Assembly (NCBI GenBank): GCA_030837085.1
Contig: JAUPLE010000650.1
Coordinates: forward strand, 1 to 40,456
Direction of reading: 5' to 3'
Source: Acidobacteriota bacterium
GTDB lineage: Bacteria; Acidobacteriota; Aminicenantia; UBA2199
DNA: 40,456 nt
Positions within the stretch are counted from its first letter, which is position 1. The number at the start of each line of letters is the position of its first letter. Positions 2 through 19,669 of this stretch are shown piece after piece. The translations under genes were made by a program, and so were the position numbers. The notes under the pieces were generated by a model that saw only the letters and a list, made by a program, of their open reading frames with translations, was not told the origin of the DNA and made no database searches.

Positions 2-3000
2 CCCAAAGAACACATTAAAATCTCTAAAGAAGCGGCTATCGCTTCCACTCAATCGCTCAAGGAAAAACAATTTTGGCTGAATAACCTGGAGGGTGAATGG
101 ACGCCGGGGATTTTCCCGTATGATAATTTCGATACCAGGGTCCAGGAAAGCCCGCGCCGGACTGCGGAGGAATGCTTTAAAATCACTGGCGAATTGTTTT
201 CACGTTTGATCCGGGTAAGCGGTGGCAATGCCCCCGCGCTTCACATGCTCCTGACCACCGCATTGATGATATTAATTTCTAAATATTCGGGCAGCACGGA
301 TTTTGTTATCGTCTCACCTATCGATAAGCAAGATATCGAAGGTGACTTTGTTAATACATTGCTGCCGCTTCGGATTCAAGTGGATGAAAATATAACCTTT
401 AAAGAGTTATTACTGCAAGTTAAAGACACCATCGATAAAGCTATCGAGCACCAGAACTACCCCATTGAAGTTTTAATCCATGACCACCTGGGCATCTCCT
501 TTGAAACGGGACTGCCCTTCGATGTAGCGATTTTGTTGGAAAATATCCAGAGTAAAATGTATTTAAAGCAAACTCCTTTTAGCCTAATTTTTTCTTTTTT
601 TAAGACCGATTCATGCATCGAAGGAATCATCGAATACAACCCGAGCCGATACCTTTTGACCACGATCCAGAGAATAATGTCCCACTTTAAATACTTACTC
701 CTGGGGGCTCTTTTTAATGCAAATTCAAAATTAGCAAACCTGGAGGTCTTGTCGGAAGAAGAAAAAAAACAATTACTTTGGGATTTTAACCATCCAGGGG
801 AAAATCCGGCTGTAGGGAGAGAAATTCCATGCCCTCGGGGAATTCATGAGTTATTCACAGAACAGGTGGAACGAACTCCAGGGTTAATGGCGGTCGTATA
901 CTATGAAGACTTAAGTGTCATATACGAAACGTTATATTCCGGGATCGAACATATATCCGCTGACCGATTGGCTTTATTTGAAAAATGCCGTTTCAAAAAA
1001 AATCCTTATATATTTGTCTACACTGAGCCGGGAACCTCGGTGAAAACCATATTGGAAGCAAGCCAGGTCGATACCTCATGGATTGAAAACTTGAAATGCA
1101 AGGAAGAAGAACTCCTTTGGCTGCAAACTCAAATACACAATGATGTAGTGATCACTCAGGGGACACTTGATTTATTGGAGGGTTTTACCGGCGAAGTCAA
1201 CCTGGTATCGTTATTCACAATGCTCAAAGAAAAAAAAGGAAACCCGGAATACCTGGTTTACGATATCAAGAAAAAGCGCATGAAGGACGGGCGCCTTGCC
1301 GGGGGGGAACTCCTTCGTCTCGAAACCAATAAGGGATTTAATGATTTTATCTTATTGATAAAGGAGTTGTTCCAATCACACCTGGTGGAGTTGATCAACC
1401 TGTCGGATTACTCGATAACAAAGAATATCCCATTTCCCACCGTTGCGGCATTAACCGGGGCCGACCATCGAAAACCAAGCCGCCAGAAGTCTCCCGTCAC
1501 GATTCTTCTCCTAGGAGACACGATTGGAGCAGCCAGCACGGGATTGTTGTATCTTGCTTCATATTTAAGAAGGAACGGCATCGATGCTGTATGCCAATCG
1601 AATGATAGGGTAAGAAAAAACAGCCTACTAAAACCCCACCTGGAAAAACTTTTATCGGAATTTCAGCCCAAGATCGTGGGGGTTAGTATGAAATGGTTTA
1701 CCCATATAGCCCGGGCATTGGAAATTTGTAAAATCATTAAAACTATCGATCCAACCGTTAAAGTGGTGATAGGCGGAAATACCGGGTCTTTTTTTGGGGA
1801 AAACCTCATCGACTATGAATATGTGGATATGGTGGTTCGTGGAGATGGCGAAGTACCACTGTTGAAAATCTGCAGGGGAGAAGACGAAGATAAAATTCCC
1901 AATATTGTCTATAAAAAAAATGGGCAAATGATAATAAATCCCATTACTTATGTCCAGGATGAAAACAACAGCAGTGATGTTTTTCTATCTCACCTTGATG
2001 AAATATTTATTTCCGATTTAGAGCCTTATTTAAACGATGGCTTTTACATCAATACAGGGAAAGGTTGTTCGCAGCGGTGTTTCTATTGTGGGGGATGCAG
2101 GGACGTGCAAGTCCAAACATTTAACCGGGGAAAACCATTTCTTCGAGGTACGGCAGAAGTCCAAAAAGACATCGAGGCAGCTTTGGATTATACCTCGACC
2201 TTTATATTTGATTTTGATTTGCCTCTTTACGGTTCCGTCGATTATTACAAGAAAATCTGGGAAGGAATAGATTTATCCCGTCATTTCTGCCAGTTCTATT
2301 TTTGGAAGTTACCTTCGGTAGAGTTTATCTCCCTGGTGGCCCGTACATTCAAATATGCCTATTTGATGATCGATGTGGGTAGTCTTTCGGAAGATCATCG
2401 CAAAAAGCTTGAATCGTTAGGGCTGGTTAAACCTCAGCCCACGGATGACGAGCTTTTTTCCTTCTTTGACACCTGTGAAACGTATCGGAATATCGAAGTC
2501 CATATCACTCAAATAGCCGGATTGCCTTATTTTTCCCTTGAGGATATAGGAAAAAGTAATGCGGTTCTTGCCCGTATTATGGCCAGGTATTCCTGTTTTA
2601 GAACGATCGATTGGGGACGGCTGCATGCTCAGCCTGGGGCCCCATTAGTAACTGATTGTGAAAAATACGGGATGGTTTCTTATGCCCGAACTTTTGAAGA
2701 TTTTTTATATTTCAGCCAGTTAAATCTCAAAGAGGAGGCTTACCCGGACCTGGAAAAGATGAATTATCCATATATATATTGGAAAGATGACAGGATGAAT
2801 TCAGAAATCGGGGAGTATTACTCCGACACTGCCAAAAAAATAGCCGGACATCGGGAAAAATTGGAAAAATCGTTATTCCTGGTCAGGACTGCCACTTATA
2901 AGGAACTGGAAGACAGGACCTATAACCTGGCTGTATTATTGCAGGAAAAAGGTGTGATATCTGGGGATATCGTGGCCCTTATGGTAGAGAAGCCAATACA

Positions 3001-4720
3001 TGCGGTATATGGGATCCTTGGAATATTGAAAGCCGGGGCCGCTTATTTGCCCATCGATCCGGATTATCCCGGGGACCGAATCCGCTATATGTTGAAAGAC
3101 AGTGGGGCCAAAATTATTGTAGTGAGTAAGGAAGTCTGCTCCGCGGAATTGAATTGTCAATGCTTAATTGTGAATGATGAAGGCTTAATAAGCGCACCCC
3201 GGGCTTCTTTTAATCCTTCATCCTCCATTCTTCATTCTTCAAGCCAACTCGCTTACGTCATCTACACTTCGGGATCTACGGGGAGACCCAAAGGGGTGGC
3301 TGTGGAACATAAAAATGCATTCAATACACTCTTAGCAAGGAAAGAAGCCTATAAAATGGATCATAGGGCAACGGCATTGCAGTTATTCTCTTATGCCTTT
3401 GACGGTTTTGTCACCAGTTTTTTTACACCGGTTATTTCCGGGGCCAGGATTGTCCTGTTAAGTGGAGAAGAGGTAAGGGATATTTCCAGGATCAGGAATG
3501 CAATATTGGAGAATAAAGTTAGTCATTTTATCGCCGTACCGGCATTATTCAAGGAAATAGCAGAGAACCTCGAGAGAGAAGAATTAGCTTCATTAGAGGT
3601 CGTTGTCCTGGCCGGTGATAAATTGCAGCCCAGTGTACTGGAAAAAGTAAGGGAAAAAAATAAAATTTTCGAAATCGTCAATGAATATGGAGTAACGGAG
3701 GCGGCGGTCATGTCCACCCTATTCCGACACCAGGAGCAGGATCAAATCATAAAAATAGGCCGCCCCATTTGGAACACAAATCTCTATATCCTCGATCGCC
3801 ATAACCACCCGCTGCCTATTGGGAGCCCGGGAGAATTATGTATCTCGGGGCTAGGAGTTGCCAGGGGCTATTTAAACAACCCCGAATTAACCGCGGAAAG
3901 ATTTATAAAAAATGTCATTAGCCCTTCGTCATTAGTCATTAGTAGTATTAAGAATCCTTCAAGTGACCAATGTCCAATGAATAATGACCGCTTATACAAA
4001 ACCGGTGACCTGGCCCGATGGCTCGCTGATGGGAATATCGAATTTTTAGGCCGAATCGATACCCAGGTAAAAATAAGAGGTTTTCGTGTCGAATTGGGGG
4101 AAATCGAGAATCTCCTAATCACCCATGAAAGTATTAAAGAAGCTGTTGTTCTCGATAACCAGGGCAATAATGATAACAAATATTTTTGTGCATACCTTGT
4201 GCCGGTAGATGGGAAAAAGGTTGATATTCCTGGAATTAAAACCTTTTTATTAACGCATTTGCCGGTTTACATGATCCCATTGTATTTAATAGAACTAGAC
4301 AAAATCCCCTTAACCATGAATGGAAAAATTGACAAGAATGCGTTACTCAAACTTGAAGAGAATCGCCTCTCTTTAAAAGCAACTTTTACGCCGCCGGGGA
4401 CAGAAATGGAAAAAGAGATAGCCAATGTCTGGAAAGAGGTACTTCAAACAGAACAGGTGGACATCGATGATAATTTCTTCGATATCGGTGGAAATTCCAT
4501 AAATATAATAAAAGTCGAAATAAAATTAGAGAAATTTTTTAACCGGGAAATTGCAGTTGTCGATCTGTTTAGATATACTACCATTCGTTCATTAGCCCAA
4601 TATTTCAACCAGGGAGAAAACCGGCAAGCAGGGGGGCTGACTCCCGAAGAGAAAATGGATAACCGTATCGATATAATGCAGGAGACCAGTAAACTTTTAC
4701 TGGGAGATGAGGAGGATTAA
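2..4720 (+). CDS. NRPS, 5'-truncated: C domain (partial) - adenylation domain interrupted by a B12-binding/radical SAM insert - thiolation (PCP) domain
   Basis: The frame is open to the window edge (codons from nt 2: PKEHIKISKEAAIASTQSLKEKQFWLNNLEG...), so the ORF-track start at 194 is an internal TTG. C-domain C-terminal half; A-domain entry GIHELFTEQVERTPG; rSAM motif CSQRCFYC; A-domain resumes at TYKELEDRTYNLA; A3 YTSGSTGRPKG; A5 NEYGVTEAAV; A7/A8 YKTGDLARW..GRIDTQVKIRGFRVELGEIE; A10 NGKIDKNAL; T domain DNFFDIGGNSINI. Confidence 0.93.
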   Translation, partial: PKEHIKISKEAAIASTQSLKEKQFWLNNLEGEWTPGIFPYDNFDTRVQESPRRTAEECFKITGELFSRLIRVSGGNAPALHMLLTTALMILISKYSGSTDFVIVSPIDKQDIEGDFVNTLLPLRIQVDENITFKELLLQVKDTIDKAIEHQNYPIEVLIHDHLGISFETGLPFDVAILLENIQSKMYLKQTPFSLIFSFFKTDSCIEGIIEYNPSRYLLTTIQRIMSHFKYLLLGALFNANSKLANLEVLSEEEKKQLLWDFNHPGENPAVGREIPCPRGIHELFTEQVERTPGLMAVVYYEDLSVIYETLYSGIEHISADRLALFEKCRFKKNPYIFVYTEPGTSVKTILEASQVDTSWIENLKCKEEELLWLQTQIHNDVVITQGTLDLLEGFTGEVNLVSLFTMLKEKKGNPEYLVYDIKKKRMKDGRLAGGELLRLETNKGFNDFILLIKELFQSHLVELINLSDYSITKNIPFPTVAALTGADHRKPSRQKSPVTILLLGDTIGAASTGLLYLASYLRRNGIDAVCQSNDRVRKNSLLKPHLEKLLSEFQPKIVGVSMKWFTHIARALEICKIIKTIDPTVKVVIGGNTGSFFGENLIDYEYVDMVVRGDGEVPLLKICRGEDEDKIPNIVYKKNGQMIINPITYVQDENNSSDVFLSHLDEIFISDLEPYLNDGFYINTGKGCSQRCFYCGGCRDVQVQTFNRGKPFLRGTAEVQKDIEAALDYTSTFIFDFDLPLYGSVDYYKKIWEGIDLSRHFCQFYFWKLPSVEFISLVARTFKYAYLMIDVGSLSEDHRKKLESLGLVKPQPTDDELFSFFDTCETYRNIEVHITQIAGLPYFSLEDIGKSNAVLARIMARYSCFRTIDWGRLHAQPGAPLVTDCEKYGMVSYARTFEDFLYFSQLNLKEEAYPDLEKMNYPYIYWKDDRMNSEIGEYYSDTAKKIAGHREKLEKSLFLVRTATYKELEDRTYNLAVLLQEKGVISGDIVALMVEKPIHAVYGILGILKAGAAYLPIDPDYPGDRIRYMLKDSGAKIIVVSKEVCSAELNCQCLIVNDEGLISAPRASFNPSSSILHSSSQLAYVIYTSGSTGRPKGVAVEHKNAFNTLLARKEAYKMDHRATALQLFSYAFDGFVTSFFTPVISGARIVLLSGEEVRDISRIRNAILENKVSHFIAVPALFKEIAENLEREELASLEVVVLAGDKLQPSVLEKVREKNKIFEIVNEYGVTEAAVMSTLFRHQEQDQIIKIGRPIWNTNLYILDRHNHPLPIGSPGELCISGLGVARGYLNNPELTAERFIKNVISPSSLVISSIKNPSSDQCPMNNDRLYKTGDLARWLADGNIEFLGRIDTQVKIRGFRVELGEIENLLITHESIKEAVVLDNQGNNDNKYFCAYLVPVDGKKVDIPGIKTFLLTHLPVYMIPLYLIELDKIPLTMNGKIDKNALLKLEENRLSLKATFTPPGTEMEKEIANVWKEVLQTEQVDIDDNFFDIGGNSINIIKVEIKLEKFFNREIAVVDLFRYTTIRSLAQYFNQGENRQAGGLTPEEKMDNRIDIMQETSKLLLGDEED
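905..2890 (+). other. Inserted domain in the NRPS A domain: N-terminal region of unknown function (~190 aa), B12-binding-like Rossmann region, radical SAM core
   Basis: Sits between MAVVYYED and TATYKELEDR, which are normally adjacent in A domains. VTILLLGDTIGAASTGLLYLASYLRRNGID...IVGVSMKWFTHIARALEICKIIKTIDPTVKVVIGG...VVRGDGEVPLLKI resembles the N-terminal domain of B12-binding radical SAM proteins. GKGCSQRCFYCGGC carries Cx3Cx2C at 2066-2089. Confidence 0.85.
3212..3239 (+). repeat. Heptanucleotide tandem repeat in coding sequence (aatcctt catcctc cattctt cattctt)
   Basis: Four consecutive 7-bp units in register just before the A3 motif (SSSILHSSSQLAYVIYTSGSTG). Confidence 0.6.
3914..3941 (+). 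repeat. Heptanucleotide tandem repeat in coding sequence (gtcatta gcccttc gtcatta gtcatta)
   Basis: 7-bp register, three identical units and one degenerate; located in an extra linker between A6 and A7 (FIKNVISPSSLVISSIKNPSSDQCPMNNDRLYKTGDLARW). Confidence 0.65.
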
Positions 4721-4726
4721 AACCGC

Positions 4727-7700
4727 ATGTTGGACCATCCCATTCAAACTCGGCTTAATGAAGTCTTTGATACCTGTAAGGATCGGATTGCCATCGAATA
4801 CGGCGATGTGAGTATATCATATTCCCAATTGGATGAAAAATCCAATCGCATTGCCAACACCATTATCGATAAAGGAATAAAAACAGGTTCATTTATCGGA
4901 ATCCTGCTGGAAGACAGAATTGAATTAATTGCAGTTATCCTGGGAATTTTAAAGACCGGCTGCGTTTTTGTCCCATTGGATTCCAGGTATCCCACCGAAC
5001 GGTTGAAAATAATGCTTCATTCCACAGACACAAAATTCCTATTCATTGATAATCATGACCTGGGTGACGCTTTTTCCGTTGAAACATTGGAATTGTCGTC
5101 CATGGCTCCAGCGTTTGCCTCTATCACGGCGACGATATCTGCCAACAGACCGGCGCTTCGATACAGTTTGAACGACAGCATTTATATCTATTTTACCTCC
5201 GGCACCACCGGGAAACCCAAAGCCATTATCGGTCAAAATAAAGGACTTCTTCACTTTATAAATTGGGAAATCCAACAATTCGACATCACCGGCCAATTCC
5301 GAGTCAGCCAATTTACCTCCCAATGCCATGACCCGTTTTTAAGAGATATTTTTGTCCCCTTATGCACCGGGGGGACAATGTGTATTCCCCCTACCCGGGA
5401 GACCCTGTTGGAACCACTTCATCTAAAAAAATGGCTCGAACAGTCCGCGGTTAACCTTATTCATTGTACTCCGGGGATGTTTAATATTTTAAACGCATCG
5501 ATTTTGAATTTAAATGCTCAAAATTACCCGGCTTTAAAATACATCTTAATGGGAGGAGAACGAATTATCCCGGCGGAACTCTCCAGTTGGTATGCCGTCT
5601 TTGGAGAGAGAGTTCAATTAGTCAATTTCTATGGCCCCACCGAAACAACTTTAGTAAAAATATATTACTTAATAATGCCACAGGATGCCGAACGAAAAAA
5701 CATTCCTATCGGGCAACCCATCGCAGGGGCAAAAGTCATTATTCTCGATCAACATTTAAGATTATGTAACCAGGGCGAAGTGGGAGAAATATATATCCGT
5801 ACACCCTATATGACAATCGGGTATTGCAATGAACCGGAATTGACTGCCCGGTATTTTATTCGCAATCCTTTCTCAAAGAAGGCCGGCGACCTGGTGTACA
5901 AAACCGGGGACCTGGGGCGAATGCTGCCGGCCCCCACCACGCCAGGAGCAGGAACCTATTTAATCGAATTCCTGGGCCGAATCGACCGGCAGGTGAAGAT
6001 AAGGGGCTTCAGGGTAGAATTGCTCGAAATCGAAAATGTAGTATTAAAGCATGAAGCAATATCCAGGTGTGTGGTAGATTTCCGGGAAGATGAGCATGAT
6101 GTTTTTGGTGATGGACATTTAATATTATACTATATACCCACACAATTCCCCGGTATTTCTCCCCAGGAACTGCGAACCTACATGCAAAAACAGCTTCCTA
6201 TATACATGCTGCCCTCCCAATCGATATCATTAGACCACATGCCCTTGACTGAAAACGGGAAAATAGATATTAAAACGTTACGGGGCCTCCGGAAGAGTTC
6301 CACCGAAAATGTTGCTCCACCCGCCGATAGAACCGAACAAAAATTATGGGAAATATGGTGCGATATTTTGCGCATCGATAATGTGGGAGTTGATGAAAAT
6401 TTCCTCCAGGTGGGCGGAAACTCATTAAATATCATGACTCTCATCTCCAGGATTCACAGGGAATTCGACATAAGACTTTCACTGGGGGATGTATTTCAAA
6501 ACCCCACCATAAAAATGCAAGCAAAAATTCTAAACCGTAAGAACCGGGAAAAATATATTCCTATCGAGCCAATCGAAAAAAAAGAATACTATGCGTTATC
6601 TTCAGCTCAGCAGAGGTTATATGTTCTTCAACGGCTGAATCCGGGGAATATCGTATATAATTTAACGGAAGCATTTTTGTTGGAAGGAGAGAGCGAATCT
6701 TTAGTGGAAAAATTCCGAAATACGTTTCATCGACTCATTGAAAGGCATGAAGTATTTCGAACCTCCTTTCATGTCGTGGGAGAGGGGCCTGTACAGCGGA
6801 TACTTGCAGGAGTGGATTTTAAGATCGAGTATTATGATTTTTCCAAAAACCACACCGAAAGATCACATGAAATAGATAATATGATTCATCGTTCCATTCG
6901 CCCCTTCGAATTAGCGAAAGCGCCTCTGCTGCGTGTGTTTTTTATGAAAATCGAAAAAAGTAAACACCTGCTGGTGGTGGATTTTCATCATATCATATCC
7001 GATGGTATTTCCCGCCAGGTATTGATAAAGGATTTTGCGGCGCTGTACCAGGGTGAAGAATTACCCCCGTTAGAACTCCAGTACAAGGACTTTTCCGAAT
7101 GGGAGCACAAGAATAAGCAAAATCCACTGTCCAGGATAAAGGAACAGGAAACCTATTGGTTGAAGATGTTCGACGGCGAAATCCCCAAATTGAATTTGCC
7201 GCTGGATTTTGAAAGTCCACCCGGGGAAAGATTCGAGAGCGGTCATTTAAGCTTCATTATCGACGATCAATTATACAACAAATTAAAAACGTTACAGCAA
7301 GAAACCAGCATTACGTTATATATGGCTTTATTGGTGGGGTATTTTATATTATTATCCAGGTATAGCCGGCAGGAAGATATCGTGATAGGCTCACCTATTT
7401 CAGGAAGGAGTCACCCGGACCTGGAGAATATTGTCGGCATGTTTATCAATATGTTGGCAATGCGTAATAAACCGGGAGGCCATAAAACCATTAGGCAATT
7501 TATCTCTGAAGTAAGAGATAATACCTTGAACGCAATGGAGAACGGCGATTATCAATTTGACGATTTAGTCAGTAAACTGGGAGTAGACAGGGATACCCGG
7601 GGCATTCCATTATCTGAAGTTGTATTCAACATGCTTAACCTGGCTAGCGGCAATCCCCCTCAACCCGACGGTAATGATCCCGGCGACCACTTTCTTTCCG

Positions 7701-7981
7701 ATTTAAAAATCTCCCCTTACACATTTGATATCGAGACGATGCCATTTAACTTACTGTTGGATGCCAGTGAAGCCTCCGGCGCTGTTTATTTGAATTTAAA
7801 CTATGCCTCTGCTTTATTTAAGAAAACCACCATTGAAAAAATGTCCAGACACTATATCGAAATATTAAACGTGATGTCGACGATAAAGGACATCAAATTG
7901 GCGGATATTAAGATTTCTCATGAGCTAATGCCTGTAAAACCCACCACCCTCCGGGATAATCAAGAGGCTTTTGATTTATAA
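4727..7981 (+). CDS. NRPS: A-T-C
   Basis: ATG at 4727 with GGAGG overlapping the end of the upstream gene. A3 YFTSGTTGKPKA, A5 NFYGPTETT, A7 YKTGDLGRM, A8 GRIDRQVKIRGFRVELLEIE, A10 NGKIDIKTL; T motif ENFLQVGGNSLNI; C-domain HHIISDG. Confidence 0.93.
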   Translation: MLDHPIQTRLNEVFDTCKDRIAIEYGDVSISYSQLDEKSNRIANTIIDKGIKTGSFIGILLEDRIELIAVILGILKTGCVFVPLDSRYPTERLKIMLHSTDTKFLFIDNHDLGDAFSVETLELSSMAPAFASITATISANRPALRYSLNDSIYIYFTSGTTGKPKAIIGQNKGLLHFINWEIQQFDITGQFRVSQFTSQCHDPFLRDIFVPLCTGGTMCIPPTRETLLEPLHLKKWLEQSAVNLIHCTPGMFNILNASILNLNAQNYPALKYILMGGERIIPAELSSWYAVFGERVQLVNFYGPTETTLVKIYYLIMPQDAERKNIPIGQPIAGAKVIILDQHLRLCNQGEVGEIYIRTPYMTIGYCNEPELTARYFIRNPFSKKAGDLVYKTGDLGRMLPAPTTPGAGTYLIEFLGRIDRQVKIRGFRVELLEIENVVLKHEAISRCVVDFREDEHDVFGDGHLILYYIPTQFPGISPQELRTYMQKQLPIYMLPSQSISLDHMPLTENGKIDIKTLRGLRKSSTENVAPPADRTEQKLWEIWCDILRIDNVGVDENFLQVGGNSLNIMTLISRIHREFDIRLSLGDVFQNPTIKMQAKILNRKNREKYIPIEPIEKKEYYALSSAQQRLYVLQRLNPGNIVYNLTEAFLLEGESESLVEKFRNTFHRLIERHEVFRTSFHVVGEGPVQRILAGVDFKIEYYDFSKNHTERSHEIDNMIHRSIRPFELAKAPLLRVFFMKIEKSKHLLVVDFHHIISDGISRQVLIKDFAALYQGEELPPLELQYKDFSEWEHKNKQNPLSRIKEQETYWLKMFDGEIPKLNLPLDFESPPGERFESGHLSFIIDDQLYNKLKTLQQETSITLYMALLVGYFILLSRYSRQEDIVIGSPISGRSHPDLENIVGMFINMLAMRNKPGGHKTIRQFISEVRDNTLNAMENGDYQFDDLVSKLGVDRDTRGIPLSEVVFNMLNLASGNPPQPDGNDPGDHFLSDLKISPYTFDIETMPFNLLLDASEASGAVYLNLNYASALFKKTTIEKMSRHYIEILNVMSTIKDIKLADIKISHELMPVKPTTLRDNQEAFDL

Positions 7982-7997: not shown

Positions 7998-9695
7998 ATG
8001 TCCGATATTAAAAAAATTCTCTTAGCCCTAATGCCCTATTGGGACCCCCTGATCCCCCCCAATGGCATCGCCCACCTCAAACGATTTCTCCAGGACTACG
8101 GTTTCCAGGTGAAAACCGTAGATGTCATCCTACAAGAACCTTTTCAACAAATATACGATAGTTACTTCAAACTATTAAAAGAGTGGGTCCCGGAAGATCA
8201 CCAGGGGAATTTTTATAATATTGGACATGAGGTGCTGGAAAACCATCTGATGGCCCATTACAATTATACCGACGAGAAGAAATACCTGGAAGCGGTAAAA
8301 CAATTGGTATATAATACATATTACATTCATATCCAAGACAACCAGGTCTGTGCATTGAATCGATTAATGACTGAATTTTATGAAACCCTGGAAGCATACA
8401 TTCTGCGACTGGCGGCTGAAGAAAAGCCCGAGGTCCTGGGTTTAACCGCATATAGAGGCACACTACCGGCCTCGTTATTTGCTCTTAAAATCATTAAAAT
8501 AAATTATCCCCATATTAAAACAGTCATTGGAGGAGGTATTTTTACAGATACCCACGCCATCGGAACTCCCAATTTCGATACTCTTTTAGAATATTCCAAA
8601 GATTTTTTAGATAAAATCATTATCGGCCAGGGGGAACTATTATTTCTAAAATACCTGCAGGGTGAACTCCCCCCAACCCAACGAGTATATACGCGGGCAG
8701 ATATCAAAGGGGACATTTTAACGTTTCCCCATATGAAAATCCCCGACTTCTCCGATTTCGATTTCTCGAGATACCCTTACCTGACTGGCGCCGCTTCTGT
8801 TAGTTGCCCTTATGAATGCAGTTTCTGCGGCACTAGAATTTTTTGGGGAGAACATCGGGTAAAGGACCCTAAACAAACCGTCAGCGAAATGGTTGAGCTG
8901 CATAAATTATATGAACGCCAATTGTTTTTTATGACCGATGCGCTGTTAAATCCCATTGTGGGGGAACTAGCCGGGGGGTTTATTAAAAACAGCGCACCCA
9001 TTTACTATGACGCTTATTTCAGGGTAGACGAAGCAACCGCCAATATTGAAAATACTCTTTTGTGGAGGCGCGGGGGGTTATACAGGGTCCGGCTGGGAAC
9101 CGAAAGCGGGTCACAGCGGGTCCTGGATATGATGGGAAAACAAATCACCCCAGCCATGATAAAAGCCGCTGTCTCCAGCCTGGCCCTGGCCGGTATCAAA
9201 ACCACGACTTATTGGGTCATCGGCCACCCCGGAGAAACAGAGGAAGATTTCCAGGCAACCCTGGATCTTATCGAAGAACTCAAAGATGATATCTATCAAT
9301 CAGAACCCAACCCCTTTATATACCACTATTCACACCAGAGCAATTCCTCGCAATGGGAATCCCACCGTAAGCCGCTGTACCCTGACGATATCCAGGATAT
9401 CATGGTATTCAAAACCTGGACTTTGGATATAGAACCCCGGCGCGAAGAGGTCTACAGCAGGCTATATCGCTTCACACAGCACTGTAAAAAACTTGGCATC
9501 CCGAATCCCTACTCGCTGGGTGATTACCAAAAAGCAGAATTACGCTGGAAAAAATTACACCACAATGCCGTACCTTCCATAATGGATTTCCTTAGTAGGA
9601 AAAAAGAATATATCGATGAAAAGAAAAACGTGAAACTTCCAGTCGTTGCCGGGGCTGCCCGGGAAGATCGCACCTCTATTTCTTTCGAATTATAA
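7998..9695 (+). CDS. B12-binding-domain radical SAM protein (standalone)
   Basis: N-terminal LLALMPYWDPLIPPNGIAHLKRFLQDYGFQVKTVDV typical of B12-binding rSAM proteins; IGGGIFTDT...; rSAM motif CPYECSFC at 8805-8828; later TESGSQRVLDMMGKQ and GHPGETEEDFQATLDLI, typical of BchE-like/MTTase-like rSAM cores. RBS-like AAGGAG upstream. Confidence 0.88.
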   Translation: MSDIKKILLALMPYWDPLIPPNGIAHLKRFLQDYGFQVKTVDVILQEPFQQIYDSYFKLLKEWVPEDHQGNFYNIGHEVLENHLMAHYNYTDEKKYLEAVKQLVYNTYYIHIQDNQVCALNRLMTEFYETLEAYILRLAAEEKPEVLGLTAYRGTLPASLFALKIIKINYPHIKTVIGGGIFTDTHAIGTPNFDTLLEYSKDFLDKIIIGQGELLFLKYLQGELPPTQRVYTRADIKGDILTFPHMKIPDFSDFDFSRYPYLTGAASVSCPYECSFCGTRIFWGEHRVKDPKQTVSEMVELHKLYERQLFFMTDALLNPIVGELAGGFIKNSAPIYYDAYFRVDEATANIENTLLWRRGGLYRVRLGTESGSQRVLDMMGKQITPAMIKAAVSSLALAGIKTTTYWVIGHPGETEEDFQATLDLIEELKDDIYQSEPNPFIYHYSHQSNSSQWESHRKPLYPDDIQDIMVFKTWTLDIEPRREEVYSRLYRFTQHCKKLGIPNPYSLGDYQKAELRWKKLHHNAVPSIMDFLSRKKEYIDEKKNVKLPVVAGAAREDRTSISFEL

Positions 9696-9786: not shown

Positions 9787-12700
9787 ATGAGCAGTAATGA
9801 AAACAATATCCACAGGACAGGCTTGGAGATAGCAGTAATCGGTATGGCGTTGAGATTCCCCGACGCCGCTAATATCCATGAATTCTGGCATAACCTGGTA
9901 AATGGCAAGGAATCCGTTTCCATCATCCCCGATGAACAACTGGAAAAGTTGGGAATAAAAGCCTCGCAGCTAAACAACCCCAATTATGTGAAAACAAAGA
10001 CGTACCCTAAAAATAAAGAGTATTTTGATGCATCCTTCTTCGGTTTTACTCCCCAGGAGGCCGAATTTATGCATCCACAGACACGTCTCTTTTTCGAATG
10101 CACCTGGGAAGCGTTAGAGGATGCCGGCTATGACCCGGAAACCTATGAAGGTTCAATCGGCCTTTATGCAGGTGGGACTACCAGCTTTTTCTGGGAAGCG
10201 CTTTTTCATCTGCGGGAAAAACACCGGGATGAAGTAGGGAATAATCTAAGCATGCATCTTTACGAAAAAGATTTCATGTGTTCCCAAATCGCTTATAACT
10301 TGAATTTAAAAGGGGCATGTGCATCGGTTCATACCGCATGCTCAACATCCCTGGTATCCATTTACCTGGCCTGCCGGGCATTGTTAATGGGGGAAAGCGA
10401 CATGGTGTTGGCAGGGGGCGCCTGTATAGATGCGTCCCCCCAATGTGGCTATTTGTACCAGGAAGGCATGATCCTATCGCCGGACGGTCACTGCCGAACC
10501 TTTGACGCTAAATCCAAAGGAACCATCCCGGGAAACGGTGTGGGTATCGTATTACTCAAGCGCCTGAAAACAGCGCTTGCGGATAGAGATCATATATACG
10601 CGATTATCAAAGGAGCCGCTATCGATAACGACGGTAGGAGAAAAGTCGGCTACCGGGCCCCCAGTATCGAAGGGCAAGCAGACGCCATCCGGGCAGCCCA
10701 ACGAATGGCGCGTGTTGAACCGGAATCCATTTCCTACATCGAAACCCACGGCACCGGCACCATCCTGGGCGACCCCGTCGAAATGGCAGGCCTTAAACTC
10801 GCTTTTCCCGCGACTAAAAAAAAATTCTGCGCCATCGGTTCCGTTAAAACCAATATCGGGCACCTGGACACAGCCGCGGGTGTCGCCGGTTTTATTAAAA
10901 CCGTTTTAGCTCTTAAACACCGCTTAATCCCCCCCAGTTTAAATTTCGAATCGCCCAACCCAAAACTCGATCTTGACAATAGCCCATTCTATGTAAATAC
11001 AATCCCCAAAAAATGGGAAAACCATGGTTTTCCCTTACGGGCAGGGGTCAGTTCCTTCGGGGCCGGGGGCACCAATGCCCATGTTATCCTGGAGGAAGCG
11101 CCGCAGCCGGTGCAATCCCCGGAAAATAAACATTGGAAGCTCCTGCTTTTTTCTACGAAAACCAGCTCCGCTTTGGATAAAATGACGACCCATTTCGCGG
11201 CGTTCTTAAAGCAAAATCCCGGTATTAATTTGTCCGACGCCGCCTATACACTGCAAATAGGCAGGGGCGCGTTTCAATACAGGAAAATGCTCGTATGCGC
11301 GGACTGCGTCGACGCCATTGAGGTTTTATCCTCCGCCGATTCCCGAAAAGTGAAAACCGGCATGGCAAAAAATACCACGCCTGCCATCGTGTTTATGTTT
11401 CCCGGTTTAGGCGCCCAATATGTAAATATGGGGTTGGAACTGTTCCGGGGGGAACCTGTTTTCCAGGAAGCCATAAACCGCTGTTTCGAAATTTTAAAAC
11501 CCCTGGGTTACGATTTAAATGAAATACTCTATCCTTCCTTCGAGGAGGATAACCGGGTCAATAATTCCTATAAGCCCAATATTAACCAATTCGACATTGC
11601 TCAATTGGTGGTTTTCACCATTGAATATTCCCTGGCGAAACTATTAATAGCCTGGGGAATCACCCCGTATGCCATGATCGGCTACAGTTTTGGGGAATAT
11701 GCCGCCGCCTGTATCTCCGGGGTAATTTCCCTGGAAGACGCCCTGAAATTGATAACAACCAGGGGAAAGTTGATCGAACAAACGCCCCCGGGCGCCATGT
11801 TAAGCATACCCCTGCCGATAAACCAGGTAACGCCTTTGCTCAATAATCGCCTCTCCATTGCCATCGATAACGGAGATTCGACCGTCTTATCCGGCGCAGT
11901 CGAGGACATTGCCGTCTTTGAAAGGGATATGCAAACCAGGAAACTGGTTTGTGTACGTTTAAAGGGTGCATATGCCCTCCATTCGACTCTAATGAAACCG
12001 ATTTCAACGGAATTTACAGCCACTGTGGAGCAGGTGACATTAAAGCAGCCTGGAATCCCCTATATTTCCAATGTAACAGGTGATTGGCTTACCCCCGCGG
12101 AAGCGCTAAACCCGGCATATTGGTCCACCCATCTACTGGAAACTGTTCACTTTGCCGGAGGTGTCAAAAAACTCCTGGACGAACCCTCGGCGCTGTTTGT
12201 CGAAATAGGGCCCGGACGGGACTTATGCTCACTGGTTAAACGCTATTTCCCCGGTGAATCCGCCCCAAAAACATACAATATGATACGAACTCCGCAAGAA
12301 AACGCCGGAGACATTTATTATTTATTAAACAGGGTCGGGCAATTGTGGCTTCAAGGGGTAAAAATCGATTGGCGCCATTTTCATAAAGATGAAAAAAGAT
12401 TTCATATCCCCTTGCCCACTTATCCCTTTGAAGGACAATATTATTGGTATGAAGAGAACGTCTTTGCTAAAGGGGCAGACAAGATTTTAGACGATAACCG
12501 CATACATAAACAACCGGATATGGCGGATTGGTTTTATGTCCCTTCCTGGACACGTTCAGTATTGCCGCAGACCACCGCTGCTCTCGATTCACCCACGGCG
12601 CCCGGGGCAAAGGAAACCCCGTCTAGCTCATATCAATTGGTCTTTAGCCATGAAAATCATTTTGCCTCTGAATTGGACCAAAGGTTGAGACAAAATAATC

Positions 12701-15264
12701 CCCATATCATTACCGTAAGAAAAGGGTTTTCCTTTAATAAAATTGATAACCGGGAATATATTATTAATCCCCGGCAAAGTAGTGATTACGATGAACTATT
12801 CTCTAACCTCCGCAGCCAGGGACAATTGCCCCGGCAAATACTCCATTTATGGTGTATTACCGGCGCTAATGCCGATCAGGAAGAACCGGCCAGCGATTTC
12901 GAAAAGCTCCAGGATATCGGGTTTTACAGTCTTCTCTACCTGGCTAAGTCGATCGGTAAACAGAAACTGGTCGCCGATATTCGTATCGAAGTGGTATCCG
13001 ATAACATTCAAAAGGTAACCGGCGGGGAAACGATATGTCCCGGGAAGGCAACGGTTCTGGGACCGGTGAAAGTTATCCCGCAAGAATATCCCTATATCAT
13101 TTGTCGCAGTATCGATATTGAAATGCCGGAACCCGGAGACCCACATGAAGAGATGCTCATCCGACAGTTAATCGAGGAATTTGCGGCAGACCCTGCCGAC
13201 ACAGCCATCGCTTATCGCAACAATTATCGTTGGGTGCAGGCATTTCAACCTGTTCGTTTGTCGCCGCCCCAGGGTACCCCTACCCCGCCTTTAAGGCCGG
13301 GGGGCGTTTACTTAATTACCGGTGGACTCGGCAATATCGGGTTTTCATTGGCCAGGTACCTGGTAGAAAGCAGCCGGGCCAAATTAATATTAATCGGACG
13401 TACAGCCATTCCTCCCGAAGAGGAGTGGAATTCGGTAAAAGAAGAAAACCTTAAAGATAAAATCGAAAAGCTTCGCCAATTGAAAACCATGGGCGCGGAA
13501 ATGCTTATCTTTAGCGTCGATGTAGCCCATAAAGAATCCATGCAAGCCGTGGTAAATAAAGCCGAAAAAAAATTGGGGCCGGTTAATGGTGTAATTCATG
13601 CCGCGGGAAGGGTGGACGCCGAATTATTTCAAGCCATCGCTGCCATTAGCCGGGAAAAATGCAGCGCCCATTTTCTCCCCAAAGTATGTGGAATCCAGGT
13701 TTTGAAGGAAATCTTCCAGGGAAAAGAATTGGACTTCTGTCTGCTGGTATCATCGTTATCGCCCATCCTGGGAGGACTGGGTTTTGTAGCTTATGCAGCG
13801 GCCAATCTTTTCCTGGACGCCTTTGTTCATCAGTTTAACCGGGAAAATCCCCAGGGCCAGGGTTGGCTCTGCGTCAATTGGGCGGATTGGCAATTCGGGG
13901 AAATTACCAACGCAGGTTCCGCATTAGGGGCGTCCGCCATTGAATTGTCCATTACCCCCGGGCAGGGCATTGCTACTTTTCAACGTATCTTAAACAATTA
14001 TCATCTCCAGCAGATCATTGTTTCTGCCGGTCGCTTGCAAGACAGGATCGATCAATGGGTAAAACTAAAATCCCTGCGCCAGGAGGATGATACCACTGTC
14101 AAGCAGTCTTCTCCAATAGTTGCAAGACCCGATTTGTTGAGTCCGTATGTACCTTCACGGGACCCACTGGAAAAGAGCCTGGCGGATATCTGGCAAGGTT
14201 TTTTTGGTCTTGACCGGATCGGTATCCAGGATAATTTTTTCGAGTTGGGAGGAGATTCATTAAAAGCTATCACCGTTATTGCAAAGGTTCATAAAAAATT
14301 GAATATTACCATACCCCTGGCAGAATTCTTCAATAGGCCCACCATTGAAAAACTGGCAGATTTCCTGCGCAATGACGATAATCAAAGTTTGGCTCTTCCT
14401 GTGAACGAAGAAAATTTAGTCCTTTTGAAAAAAGGCGCTGATAACGCCGATCATTTTTTCTTTATCCATGACGGCACCGGTGACGCCGATGTTTATATCG
14501 ATTTATGCAACCAGGTGAATACAGGAATTAATTATTGGGGAATCCGGGCGGATCGGTTGCAAAATTATACTCCCTGTGATTTCGATATCGAACAAGGGGC
14601 AGCAAAATACATTGAAAAAATTAAAAAGATTCAACCCAATGGGCCGTATTCACTGGGTGGTTGGTCTTTTGGAGGTATTGTTGCTTTTGAAGTGGTCAGA
14701 CAGTTGGAGAATATGCACGAGTCCATTAAACATTTTGCCTTGATTGACCCGGTGACTCCACCCCAAGCTTCGCAGGGGGAATACAGGCCTTTTACGGTAG
14801 AATCGGAGTTACGTTATCTGGCTTATTTCCTGCAGGGGGTCGCCGATGAAATATCCAAAAAGATACATGAGGGAAAAATAACTGGATTAAAGCAGTTTTG
14901 GCCTGTTGTTTTGGAATACCTGGGGGATATTCATTTCGATATTGAAACAATTAAAAGCGCCATTCCCGGGACTATTATGAGGGCCATAGCCAATTTTGAT
15001 CGTTCGGATATAGGCAAGTTGATATATTATACTAATGCCATCAGGAGTTTCAGCCAGTCATTGGATTATTATAGTCCAAAGAATAAAATACAAACGCCAA
15101 TTCATTATTTTGGCGCCAGTGAATCCAGGGAATCGGAAGAGTTCAATAGGGAAGGATGGAACGGTTATAGTAGTCAGCCCATTGTGTTTTATGAAATTCC
15201 CGGCGATCATTTTACCATATTAAAATTGCCGGAGGTCGCCGGGTTGGCAAAAGTTTTTGCTTGA
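9787..15264 (+). CDS. Type I PKS with terminal thioesterase: KS-AT-KR-T-TE
   Basis: ORF-track start at 9646 overlaps the upstream gene; the better start is ATG 9787 (MSSNENNIHRTGLEIAVIGMALRFP) preceded by GAGGAG. KS TACSTS, ETHGTGT, KTNIGHLD; AT FPGLGAQY and GYSFGEY; KR GVYLITGGLGNIG and SSLSPILGGLGFVAYAAAN; T DNFFELGGDSLK; TE GGWSFGG. Confidence 0.93.
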   Translation: MSSNENNIHRTGLEIAVIGMALRFPDAANIHEFWHNLVNGKESVSIIPDEQLEKLGIKASQLNNPNYVKTKTYPKNKEYFDASFFGFTPQEAEFMHPQTRLFFECTWEALEDAGYDPETYEGSIGLYAGGTTSFFWEALFHLREKHRDEVGNNLSMHLYEKDFMCSQIAYNLNLKGACASVHTACSTSLVSIYLACRALLMGESDMVLAGGACIDASPQCGYLYQEGMILSPDGHCRTFDAKSKGTIPGNGVGIVLLKRLKTALADRDHIYAIIKGAAIDNDGRRKVGYRAPSIEGQADAIRAAQRMARVEPESISYIETHGTGTILGDPVEMAGLKLAFPATKKKFCAIGSVKTNIGHLDTAAGVAGFIKTVLALKHRLIPPSLNFESPNPKLDLDNSPFYVNTIPKKWENHGFPLRAGVSSFGAGGTNAHVILEEAPQPVQSPENKHWKLLLFSTKTSSALDKMTTHFAAFLKQNPGINLSDAAYTLQIGRGAFQYRKMLVCADCVDAIEVLSSADSRKVKTGMAKNTTPAIVFMFPGLGAQYVNMGLELFRGEPVFQEAINRCFEILKPLGYDLNEILYPSFEEDNRVNNSYKPNINQFDIAQLVVFTIEYSLAKLLIAWGITPYAMIGYSFGEYAAACISGVISLEDALKLITTRGKLIEQTPPGAMLSIPLPINQVTPLLNNRLSIAIDNGDSTVLSGAVEDIAVFERDMQTRKLVCVRLKGAYALHSTLMKPISTEFTATVEQVTLKQPGIPYISNVTGDWLTPAEALNPAYWSTHLLETVHFAGGVKKLLDEPSALFVEIGPGRDLCSLVKRYFPGESAPKTYNMIRTPQENAGDIYYLLNRVGQLWLQGVKIDWRHFHKDEKRFHIPLPTYPFEGQYYWYEENVFAKGADKILDDNRIHKQPDMADWFYVPSWTRSVLPQTTAALDSPTAPGAKETPSSSYQLVFSHENHFASELDQRLRQNNPHIITVRKGFSFNKIDNREYIINPRQSSDYDELFSNLRSQGQLPRQILHLWCITGANADQEEPASDFEKLQDIGFYSLLYLAKSIGKQKLVADIRIEVVSDNIQKVTGGETICPGKATVLGPVKVIPQEYPYIICRSIDIEMPEPGDPHEEMLIRQLIEEFAADPADTAIAYRNNYRWVQAFQPVRLSPPQGTPTPPLRPGGVYLITGGLGNIGFSLARYLVESSRAKLILIGRTAIPPEEEWNSVKEENLKDKIEKLRQLKTMGAEMLIFSVDVAHKESMQAVVNKAEKKLGPVNGVIHAAGRVDAELFQAIAAISREKCSAHFLPKVCGIQVLKEIFQGKELDFCLLVSSLSPILGGLGFVAYAAANLFLDAFVHQFNRENPQGQGWLCVNWADWQFGEITNAGSALGASAIELSITPGQGIATFQRILNNYHLQQIIVSAGRLQDRIDQWVKLKSLRQEDDTTVKQSSPIVARPDLLSPYVPSRDPLEKSLADIWQGFFGLDRIGIQDNFFELGGDSLKAITVIAKVHKKLNITIPLAEFFNRPTIEKLADFLRNDDNQSLALPVNEENLVLLKKGADNADHFFFIHDGTGDADVYIDLCNQVNTGINYWGIRADRLQNYTPCDFDIEQGAAKYIEKIKKIQPNGPYSLGGWSFGGIVAFEVVRQLENMHESIKHFALIDPVTPPQASQGEYRPFTVESELRYLAYFLQGVADEISKKIHEGKITGLKQFWPVVLEYLGDIHFDIETIKSAIPGTIMRAIANFDRSDIGKLIYYTNAIRSFSQSLDYYSPKNKIQTPIHYFGASESRESEEFNREGWNGYSSQPIVFYEIPGDHFTILKLPEVAGLAKVFA

Positions 15265-15315: not shown

Positions 15316-15798
15316 ATGAAACGATTCATGTTGGGTATGATGTTTATCGTATTGGGTTTTGTGTTGGTTTTTGGCGAGACATACGAGCATAAAGAGGGTG
15401 GGTTATCCATCTGGTTCCCTGACACCTGGAAAATAAAGGCCGAGGAAAATGTCCTGGAAGCGGATGCGCCGGATGAGGATGCCTATGTGCAATTATTAAT
15501 GTTGGAAGACGTAGAGACAATGGAAACAGCCATTGATGCGCTGGTTGAGGAATTGGCCCCCATTGTTAAGAACTTCAAATTAACCACGGAGGGACAGGAA
15601 GAAAAATTCAACGGATTGAATTTTTATCTTGTCGAAGGTGAAGGCATGGTCGAGGGAGTGAAGATGGGAGTATCTGTTGTTTTAATTGCAACGCCCAAAG
15701 AGCAAATCGGCATGATGACTTTACTGTGTCCCGAGGTAGTATATAAGAAATACGAAAAAGATTTTGAGAAAATCATAAAGAACATAAAAGCGATTTAA
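15316..15798 (+). CDS. Small secreted protein with N-terminal signal peptide, unknown function
   Basis: RBS AAGGAGAAAG; hydrophobic N-terminus MKRFMLGMMFIVLGFVLVFG; body ...GLSIWFPDTWKIKAEENVLEADAPDEDAYVQLLMLED... Confidence 0.75.
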   Translation: MKRFMLGMMFIVLGFVLVFGETYEHKEGGLSIWFPDTWKIKAEENVLEADAPDEDAYVQLLMLEDVETMETAIDALVEELAPIVKNFKLTTEGQEEKFNGLNFYLVEGEGMVEGVKMGVSVVLIATPKEQIGMMTLLCPEVVYKKYEKDFEKIIKNIKAI

Positions 15799-16360: not shown

Positions 16361-17656
16361 ATGCCCAATAACAAAAGTAAAAAGAGTATGTCAAAGAAGA
16401 AAAAATATTTCCTGGTCATTGGAGGGATCGTACTGCTGCTGATTTTAAGAACCGCCTTTTGCGGTAAGAAGAACCCACCCGTCATAGTCCAGACGGAAAA
16501 AGTCACAAAACGTACTATTACCCAGATCGTGACCGCTACCGGCAAAATCAACCCGGTCAATCAAGTGGTCATCACCCCTGAAGTAACAGGCGAAATTGTA
16601 TCCCTACCCGTCAAAGAAGGAGACGCCGTCCAAAAAGGTCAGTTGCTGATCAAAATAAAACCCGATACTTATTTAGCGCAAAGAGAGCGCGCCAAAGCCA
16701 ACCTGGATTCAGCCCGGGCCAACCTGAAAATGAGAAAAGTCGAGCTCACCTATATCCAGGCCGAATACGACCGCGCCCAGAACTTATTAAAAAACGGCGT
16801 GGCCAACCAGCAGCAAATGGAAAAAGCCCAATCGGACCTCTCCTCCACCCAGGCCCAAATAGAAGCCCTGAACGCCGCGGTTTCCCAGGCTGAGGCGGCG
16901 CTCAAAGAAGCCGACGAAAGCCTGTACAAAACCACCATCTATTCACCCATGGACGGCACCGTAAGCCAACTCAATGTCGAGCTGGGCGAACGCATCCTGG
17001 GCAGCGGGTTTTCCCAGGGAACCAACCTCATGACCGTGGCCGATTTGAACCAGATGGAAGCCGTGATAGAAGTAGATGAAAACGATGTGGTCCTGGTCTC
17101 CGTGGGCGACAAAGCCAAAATCCAGATCGATGCCTTTAAAGACAAAACCTTCACCGGGACTGTATCACAAATCGGCAACAGCGCCAAAAGCGTCGGCGAA
17201 GGCACCCAGGAAGTGGTCGTTAATTTCGAAATCAAGATCGCCCTGGACAAGGCCGGCGAAGCGGTCCGGCCGGGAATGTCCTGCAACGCCGACATCGAAA
17301 CCGAAACCCGGACCAATGTACTTTCCGTCCCCATCATGAGCGTCACCGCCCGCTCCCCTGAAGAAAAGAAAAAAGAAGAAACAGGAGAAGCAGGCGGCGA
17401 TACCCAGGTCTTAGCCGTCCAGAAAGCAAAAGCCCGCAATAAACCGCAAGAAGTCGTCTTCACCGTCAAAGATCAAAAAGCCCTTATGAAACCCGTAAAA
17501 ACCGGGATCAGCGACGACACCTATATCGAAGTCAGCAGTGGCTTAAACGAAGGCGAGGAAGTGGTCAGCGGCTCCTATAAAGCAATCTCCAAAGAACTCG
17601 ACGACGGTACAAAAGTGCAGGTTAAAAATGAAGAAAAAGGGACAAAAAAGCAATAA
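16361..17656 (+). CDS. HlyD/MacA-like periplasmic adaptor (membrane fusion protein)
   Basis: N-terminal TM (YFLVIGGIVLLLILRTAFC), barrel-sandwich/hairpin sequence GEIVSLPVKEGDAVQKGQLLIKI, coiled coil, VRPGMSCNADIET; followed by ABC genes. Confidence 0.9.
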   Translation: MPNNKSKKSMSKKKKYFLVIGGIVLLLILRTAFCGKKNPPVIVQTEKVTKRTITQIVTATGKINPVNQVVITPEVTGEIVSLPVKEGDAVQKGQLLIKIKPDTYLAQRERAKANLDSARANLKMRKVELTYIQAEYDRAQNLLKNGVANQQQMEKAQSDLSSTQAQIEALNAAVSQAEAALKEADESLYKTTIYSPMDGTVSQLNVELGERILGSGFSQGTNLMTVADLNQMEAVIEVDENDVVLVSVGDKAKIQIDAFKDKTFTGTVSQIGNSAKSVGEGTQEVVVNFEIKIALDKAGEAVRPGMSCNADIETETRTNVLSVPIMSVTARSPEEKKKEETGEAGGDTQVLAVQKAKARNKPQEVVFTVKDQKALMKPVKTGISDDTYIEVSSGLNEGEEVVSGSYKAISKELDDGTKVQVKNEEKGTKKQ

Positions 17657-17681
17657 TTGACCCTTACAGGATCAGGCCAAT

Positions 17682-18413
17682 ATGAATATCATTAACATAG
17701 AAAATATAACGAGGCTCTACGAAGTGGGCGCCGAGGAAGTACGGGCATTAGACGGGGTTTCACTGGCCATCGGGAAAAATGAATACGTCGCCATCATGGG
17801 TCCCTCAGGCTCCGGGAAATCCACCCTGATGAACATCCTGGGCTGCCTTGATACACCCTCTTCAGGCACTTACCTCTTCAAAAACATCCAGGTCAGCGAC
17901 ATGACCGATAATCAATTAGCCGAAATACGGAACCGGGAAATCGGTTTCGTTTTCCAGACCTTTAATTTGCTGCCGCGCTCCGATTCCTTGCACAACGTTG
18001 AATTGCCGTTGATTTATGCAGGAATTCCCTCATCGCAGCGAAAAGAAATGGCAATGAATGCCCTGGTTAGCGTCGGCCTGGGAGACCGTGTCCATCACAA
18101 GCCCAACGAACTCTCGGGCGGACAGCGGCAGCGCGTGGCCATTGCCCGGGCCTTAGTCACCAATCCGGCCATCATCCTGGCGGATGAACCCACCGGCAAT
18201 CTCGACTCCAAAACCGGCGAAGATATTATGACCGTTTTCGCTGAGATCCACCGCCAGGGCAATACCATCATCCTGGTTACCCATGAAGAGTACATAGCCG
18301 AACACGCCAATCGAATTATCCGCCTGCGGGACGGAAAGATCGAAAAGGATGAGAAAAACTCCCACTCCCATCATGCCCCCCTGACAAAAGCCGCCGCCAT
18401 GACAGGATCATAA
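17682..18413 (+). CDS. ABC transporter ATP-binding protein (MacB/LolD-like)
   Basis: Walker [10 protein letters not shown], signature [15 protein letters not shown], Walker [18 protein letters not shown]-loop VTHEE. Confidence 0.95.
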
Positions 18414-18436
18414 TTGATCCTGAAGGAGAAACGAAC

Positions 18437-19669
18437 TTGAATCGCTATTGGTTTGAATTAAAAGAAGGAGTGTTATTCTCACTCAAGGCCATCAAAGCCA
18501 ATAAAGCCCGCTCGATGCTGACCACACTGGGCATCGTTATCGGGATATGTTCGGTGGCGTTGATGGCAACCGCCATCAAGGGCATCGATCGCGCTTTCGA
18601 ACAGGGTATCAGCGCGCTGGGCGCCGATAACCTGTGGATCGATAAGTGGCCCTGGTTCACCGATGAAGAATGGTGGAAAATACGCAACCGGCGAAATTTA
18701 ACCATGGAAAATTACGAGAAATATAAATCCCTGGCCAAGAAACCCCTTGCCGTGGCCCCAACCTTATGGTCATCATGCAAAGTCCAGTACAATGGTCACT
18801 ATATCGAGGACACACTGGTGACCGGCTCCACCGCCGATTACGTGAAAACCACCAATTTCGATTTTGCCCAGGGTCGTTTTTACTCTGAAATAGAAGCAGA
18901 TGGGGCCCGGGATGTGGCCGTGGTAGGCAACGATATTGTCGAGAACCTGTTCAAACATATCAATCCACTGGATCAATATATCGAAGTCGATCGCATCAAA
19001 TTTAAAATCGTGGGCGTCTTGAAAAAACAGGGCAGCAACTTGCTCGGTGATTTCAATCCCGACAAGCAAGTCTACATACCTATCGGCGCTTCAATCAAAT
19101 ATTACACCGGCCATAGACGCAGTATTGCCATCGTGGTCCGGGCCAAAAGTACAGCCCAGGTCAAGGAAACAGCCGAAGAAGCCGAGGAAATGATGCGCCG
19201 CGCACGGGGACTTAAATACAATCAAGAGAATGATTTCTCCATCAACCAACAGGAAGGCTTGATGCGTAATTATAATCAAACCGTCGGCGTCATCAAATTG
19301 GTAGGCTTGTTTATTACCGGCTTGTCCCTTTTGGTGGGCGCCATCGGCATCATGAATATTATGTTTGTTTCAGTCAAAGAACGCACCAGGGAGATCGGCA
19401 TCCGTAAGGCCATCGGCGCTAAAAAACGGACCATTCTCAGCCAATTCCTGGCTGAGGCCGCCTTGATTTGTTTGATCGGCGGAATGATCGGTCTTACCCT
19501 GGCGATTGTCTTAAGTATGGGCATCAATAAATTTCTACCCACCAGTGTCCAAATGGATACGGTTTTTTTGGCCATTACCATTTCCATACTAACCGGTATT
19601 ATATCGGGGTTTGTCCCGGCTTATACAGCAGCCAAAATGGACCCCGTCGATGCATTGAGGTACGAGTAA
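18437..19669 (+). CDS. MacB/FtsX-family ABC transporter permease
   Basis: TTG start with upstream GGAGAA; KARSMLTTLGIVIGI, GAIGIMNIMFVSVKERTREIGIRKAIGAKKR, C-terminal AAKMDPVDALRYE. Confidence 0.93.
   Translation: MNRYWFELKEGVLFSLKAIKANKARSMLTTLGIVIGICSVALMATAIKGIDRAFEQGISALGADNLWIDKWPWFTDEEWWKIRNRRNLTMENYEKYKSLAKKPLAVAPTLWSSCKVQYNGHYIEDTLVTGSTADYVKTTNFDFAQGRFYSEIEADGARDVAVVGNDIVENLFKHINPLDQYIEVDRIKFKIVGVLKKQGSNLLGDFNPDKQVYIPIGASIKYYTGHRRSIAIVVRAKSTAQVKETAEEAEEMMRRARGLKYNQENDFSINQQEGLMRNYNQTVGVIKLVGLFITGLSLLVGAIGIMNIMFVSVKERTREIGIRKAIGAKKRTILSQFLAEAALICLIGGMIGLTLAIVLSMGINKFLPTSVQMDTVFLAITISILTGIISGFVPAYTAAKMDPVDALRYE

Follow-up and report, generated by a model that had tools for sequence, protein, structure and literature searches.

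The window analysed here, that is, the whole stretch of 40,456 nucleotides, is contig C993 of an Acidobacteriota genome (G000, a 6.9 Mb assembly). Its plus strand carries two NRPS genes, a stand-alone radical SAM (rSAM) gene, referred to below as the free rSAM, and a PKS gene. The following features were assigned:

2..4720, plus strand: NRPS ORF1, half-C-A[B12-rSAM]-T (Pfam, homologues), with the start codon just beyond the contig end
2..796, plus strand: C-terminal half of a condensation domain (half-C), candidate tail receptor, with the putative specificity residue Ala at 236-238
1502..2770, plus strand: fused rSAM domain at the beginning of the A domain of ORF1, a family of its own (Pfam, family comparison)
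4727..7981, plus strand: NRPS ORF2, A-T-C, with a complete terminal C domain bearing HHIISDG (Pfam)
7955..7978, plus strand: C-terminal tail DNQEAFDL of ORF2, of the same kind as the tails of free rSAMs (tail comparison)
7998..9695, plus strand: free radical SAM gene of the cobalamin type, 565 aa, ATG start
8010..8672, plus strand: B12-type, Rossmann-like N-terminal region (aa ~5-225) with a helical insertion (Pfam B12-binding at aa 132-186, AF2 model, invariant residues)
8802..9272, plus strand: radical SAM core, aa 269-425 (Pfam)
8805..8828, plus strand: CPYECSFC, the CxxxCxxC [4Fe-4S] motif (sequence, family alignment)
9648..9692, plus strand: disordered C-terminal tail ending in SISFEL, putative docking motif (AF2 pLDDT <50, tail statistics)
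9787..15264, plus strand: PKS ORF, KS-AT-KR-T-TE, for which ATG 9787 is preferred over the listed TTG 9646

An earlier note on this DNA had placed a free B12-type rSAM gene at 7998-9695, and the ORF, its Pfam domains and the CPYECSFC motif were all borne out; AAGGAG stands directly 5' of the ATG. The note had also described a closely spaced gene set of C-A[rSAM]-T, A-T-C, rSAM and PKS. The close spacing, the A-T-C, the rSAM and the PKS were confirmed, but the "C" of ORF1 proved to comprise no more than the C-terminal half of a condensation domain. The contig edge alone does not account for this, since homologous ORFs begin at the same domain point, and the window starts about where their Met would be. 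On the plus strand, the gaps are 6 bp between ORF1 and ORF2, 16 bp between ORF2 and the free rSAM, and 91 bp between the rSAM and the PKS if the latter starts at ATG 9787; the listed TTG overlaps the rSAM gene. Because the gaps are short and no terminator-like site was found on the plus strand between 5378 and 10000, it is plausible that the free rSAM forms an operon with ORF1, ORF2 and the PKS. ORF1 ends in a T domain followed by ...LLLGDEED; since this resembles the end ...ILLGDENA which precedes a KS at locus L035, the PKS may take over from ORF1, and gene order may be non-colinear; any gene 5' of ORF1 would lie beyond the contig.

Further features of the window are recorded for completeness. 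The fused rSAM of ORF1 lies early in the A domain, before the TYKEL motif, and some 130 or more residues without domain assignment precede its B12 domain. Downstream on the same strand are a 160-aa ORF (15316-15798) without Pfam or NCBIfam match, and MacA/MacB-type ABC exporter genes (16361-20895), which may serve product export. The opposite strand (24743-40455, minus) encodes a second line, C-A-T-C-A-T then KS-AT-KR-T-C-A-T-TE-like, with an epimerisation-type signature (TIGR01720) at 39781-40242.

The free radical SAM protein and its family

The free protein matches Pfam Radical_SAM (E=5e-14, aa 269-425, above the curated cut-off) and B12-binding (E=2e-8, aa 132-186, 34.5 bits against a cut-off of 32.1). 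Cys 270, 274 and 277 of the motif are invariant in 40/40 family members; other invariant residues include G178-G179, F182, D205, G210, G367-x-E369, G409-x-P411-G412-E413 and R516-W517. The AF2 model has a pLDDT of 91, with the last 15 residues (aa 551-565) disordered, and the closest PDB folds are the cobalamin rSAM enzymes TsrM, OxsB, MgmA and TokK; CysS stands lower in the list and AprD4 is also among the matches. When compared with NCBIfam equivalogs (BchE, PhpK, RiPP C-methyltransferase and others), the protein reached no curated cut-off, the nearest being BchE (TIGR02026) and PhpK (TIGR04479) at 97 bits, far below their cut-offs (481 and 600). By its core motif and B12-type Rossmann domain we assign the gene to the cobalamin-type (class B) rSAMs, with cobalamin binding and methyl transfer as putative properties.

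The family comprises about 50 copies or fragments in seven NRPS-rich relatives (full matches and fragments: G000 7, G001 6, G002 1, G003 11, G006 25, G007 2, G013 3) and one copy in Chitinophaga sp. S165. The window genome itself holds four further full copies, 48-54% identical, and one broken copy. In small-genome members of the same taxonomic family only general rSAMs were found, at about 30% identity. Among named genomes the one close match is that of Chitinophaga sp. S165, a member of another phylum, at 44% over nearly the full length; a scan of named-genome contigs with the single free rSAM protein gave nothing, and this copy came from the alignment-based search. It was also the sole match in 399 genomes of Chitinophaga's family. 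The earlier note had raised the possibility of an unrelated housekeeping family, which we reject because 395 of the 396 sampled genomes of the phylum show no match at threshold and the gene lies nearly always inside NRPS loci.

Broken free rSAM copies, affected by an in-frame stop, an internal deletion or a truncation, were seen between NRPS genes (G000:C434:20506-21609; L036:1568-2515 and 6846-7259; L035:473-2260). A second kind of rSAM domain, matched by the free-family profile, sits inside the A domain of half-C-A-T-C proteins (L166:2696-8293, L170:6603-12281).

A shared C-terminal tail and its putative half-C partner

There are about 38 loci with flanking NRPS genes, and in nearly all of them the free rSAM follows a complete terminal C domain and precedes a half-C-A-T ORF. 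The same layout (complete C, free rSAM, half-C) recurs in Chitinophaga sp. S165, where another subunit of the same line has what we take to be a TubC-type N-terminus. L034 and the window copy do not adjoin a half-C. The half-C corresponds to C residues ~184-350 and is about 265 aa long, with conserved positions in the 49 ORFs listed, window ORF1 included. The HHxxxDG motif is absent from 49/49 of these domains; upstream terminal C domains mostly retain it, several with DG changed to DA or similar. The half-C fold is well predicted by AF2, and Foldseek places the model on C domains and also matches it to the X-domain/OxyB complex 4tx3.

Free rSAMs and the NRPSs ending in C that precede them share a C-terminal tail with the consensus D/E-D/E-x-G-D-F-x-F. 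Endings of the form [FW]x[FILM]x? are common on free rSAMs (35/39) and on NRPSs that terminate in C (38/45) but rare on NRPSs with other ends (1/22) and on background ORFs (32/803). The rSAM tail and the upstream NRPS tail of one locus are closer to each other than tails from different loci (permutation p=1e-4; within genomes p=6e-4). A half-C protein comes next after a tail-bearing protein in 52 of 56 junctions and after other proteins in 4 of 34 (p=2e-15); at 14 junctions the C-tail leads directly to the half-C, with no rSAM between. The tail is carried by 46/51 rSAMs which adjoin an NRPS and by 6/23 of those elsewhere in the genomes, although two of these six belong to such clusters or to the free family. 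It is found, moreover, on other B12-type rSAM families in NRPS loci, which are ~30% identical to the free gene or the fused domain, and on a U32-peptidase-like protein of 390 aa in NRPS loci of G003 and G001. This protein is possibly an oxygen-independent hydroxylase recruited in the same way. Two U32-like copies lie among rSAM genes (L166:11927-13096 and L167:7404-8588, tails DIGFDL and VDFDFA); the assignment is by Pfam PF01136, E=1e-11 for the L166 copy. At L044 and L045 the NRPSs ending in C carry instead a DDLENE terminus and the next protein begins directly with an A domain, which is perhaps another docking type.

Three tail features were compared with all half-C columns by within-genome permutation. 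The class of the residue two positions ahead of the tail aromatic (position -2) is correlated with the charge at the half-C position bracketed in SxxSDx[R]LHMIL (r=-0.80, reached by 0/2000 permutations), and for the remaining two features the best familywise p values were 0.27 and 0.02. A hydrophobic -2 residue goes with an uncharged half-C residue in 17/18 pairs and any other -2 residue with R/K in 31/34 (p=9e-10, tree structure ignored). The code holds for rSAMs alone (p=3e-5) and for NRPSs alone (p=5e-4), tree structure being ignored here too. Loci L037, L043 and L050 contain both pair types, correctly matched, and Chitinophaga conforms as well. On the best half-C tree, which has few supported branches, the charge changes at least eight times. 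AF2 models of tail and half-C in cis gave a tail pLDDT of about 54-70 and no strand.

In the window, the Ala of the ORF1 half-C and the SISFEL tail of the free rSAM (Ile at -2) form a matched pair under this code, and the ORF2 tail QEAFDL, with E at -2, is mismatched to the ORF1 half-C class. The window rSAM tail lacks the acidic residues, and the adjoining downstream gene is a PKS without half-C. Since uncharged half-C residues are paired with I/V-type tails, of which ISFEL is one, ORF1 is the most likely partner of the free rSAM. The shared tail and its half-C partner, which the earlier note had missed, are in our opinion the more telling feature of this locus.

Proposed function and alternatives

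On balance we consider it probable that the free gene encodes a trans-acting, stand-alone B12-type rSAM tailoring enzyme, most likely C-methylating, which is recruited via the tail/half-C pair. The enzyme would act in trans on a carrier-bound substrate in the NRPS/PKS line. Its short disordered tail, imitating the tails of NRPS subunits ending in C, would bring it to the acceptor NRPS subunit, whose catalytically empty half-C before the A domain would read that tail. Most likely, a methyl group would be placed on an otherwise unreactive side-chain carbon of an amino acid.

As for the substrate, distances between free rSAMs correlate with those of the half-C (r=0.66) and the downstream A domain (0.60), then with the upstream A (0.44) and the upstream C (0.26). 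In the closest pairs, for example L028/L038 and L048/L051, the downstream A code is kept and the upstream code is changed. Because both the distances and the closest pairs follow the downstream partner, the likeliest substrate, with moderate confidence, is the residue which the half-C-A-T subunit loads. The downstream codes, as we read them, are Asn-like (DLTKIGEVG), Tyr-like (DGTITAEVM) and also Val-, Asp- and Pro-like. A fixed single amino-acid substrate for the family was rejected on account of this variation, which fits side-chain C-methyltransferases as a group but is no proof of them. The window copy falls among members with an Asn-reading A domain downstream; the ORF1 code is Tyr-like.

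The strongest alternative keeps the recruitment and changes the chemistry to hydroxylation, cyclisation, epimerisation or dehydration. BchE, OxsB and AprD4 perform reactions other than methylation on the B12-type rSAM scaffold, AprD4 being a dehydratase that is not known to bind B12. The best NCBIfam matches, far below cut-off, are to BchE and PhpK, AprD4 and OxsB are fold neighbours, and the copies adjoin A domains of many different predicted specificities. The structural neighbours are mostly methyltransferases, however, and for epimerisation a substitute is not needed, given that E domains are plentiful in these genomes. We regard another chemistry as possible, but clearly the less probable choice.

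It seems rather unlikely that the tail and half-C only dock NRPS subunits while the rSAM rides along and modifies an unbound amino acid or the product after its release. The 14 junctions without rSAM, as well as L034 and the window copy, neither of them next to a half-C, would fit such an arrangement. The rSAMs, however, carry the tail themselves, do so in several distinct families and mostly in NRPS loci, and obey the code when taken alone. Even less credible is the half-C as a degenerate remnant, with correlations which merely reflect the joint duplication of whole clusters. Its size, conserved positions and well predicted fold do not suit a remnant; and although the trees of free rSAM, half-C and downstream A correlate and the half-C tree is weakly supported, the repeated charge changes, the three loci with both pair types and the recurrence of the layout in Chitinophaga speak against joint duplication.

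The fused rSAM belongs to a family of its own, with some nine members spread over four of the genomes; most of these are half-C-A[rSAM] proteins. Fused and free copies occur together in five contigs: C993 and C434 (G000), C173 (G001), C551 (G003) and C285 (G006). The motif CSQRCFYC, reported in the earlier note, was found in ORF1, in surroundings unlike those of CPYECSFC. A BLASTP alignment between the window's fused and free rSAMs covers only 94 B12-domain residues, at 30% identity, and the two fall into separate families with relatives at 44-57% each; on these sequence comparisons they are different enzymes, and the view that they do not represent a simple duplication was upheld. That the free gene arose as a detached copy of the fused rSAM and does the same job, as B12-type rSAMs in one gene set might suggest, can practically be dismissed on the same low identity, separate families and different motif surroundings. 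That the two catalyse two different steps is the natural reading and a plausible one.

Comparison with known systems

How O2-sensitive rSAM tailoring enzymes find the right NRPS module is, to our knowledge, largely an open question. The recruitment signal proposed here from sequence would consist of six to ten tail residues and one receptor residue. If true, it shows how such enzymes are deployed at a chosen assembly-line step; the tail could then predict the module served by a trans enzyme in uncultured bacteria and help to equip other lines with radical chemistry. With Chitinophaga sp. S165 there is one copy on record from a named strain. In the open-access literature we found no description of a half-C receptor or of tail-recruited radical SAM enzymes. 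Whether we are dealing with a docking class not described in the literature searched is a claim on which we are evenly divided: in such a class the half-C would read a D/E-x-x-[DE]-F-x-F tail, and a single address code, comprising two or more orthogonal types per cluster, would both order NRPS subunits and recruit several tailoring families (B12-type rSAMs, U32-like) to chosen modules.

The enzymes CysS and TokK, cobalamin-dependent rSAMs whose substrates are bound to a carrier or to pantetheine, resemble the free rSAM in their B12-type Rossmann domain, rSAM core, CxxxCxxC motif and natural-product setting, but are only 12-16% identical to it in structure alignment. Neither is known to us to have such a tail or a half-C partner. 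CysS is part of an NRPS pathway (PMC7966384); according to its PDB title, the structure was determined with a pantetheinylated substrate.

In SLiM/beta-hairpin docking pairs, a short disordered C-terminal motif with charged and hydrophobic positions is used; such motifs were reported also on enzymes such as oxidases, and a single motif type may serve several partners (PMC9113145). The free rSAM tail matches this short disordered motif. The receptor there is a beta-hairpin docking domain, whereas here the next subunits start with a half-C fold, and the donors there end in a T domain, those here in a C domain. The X-domain of glycopeptide NRPSs, which recruits P450 Oxy enzymes (PMC6333238), is like the half-C a member of the C superfamily without condensation function, and it recruits trans tailoring enzymes. 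It is, however, of whole C-domain size, stands before the terminal TE and binds P450s, while the half-C lacks the N-lobe, occupies the N-terminus before an A domain, has rSAM neighbours and also links NRPS subunits.
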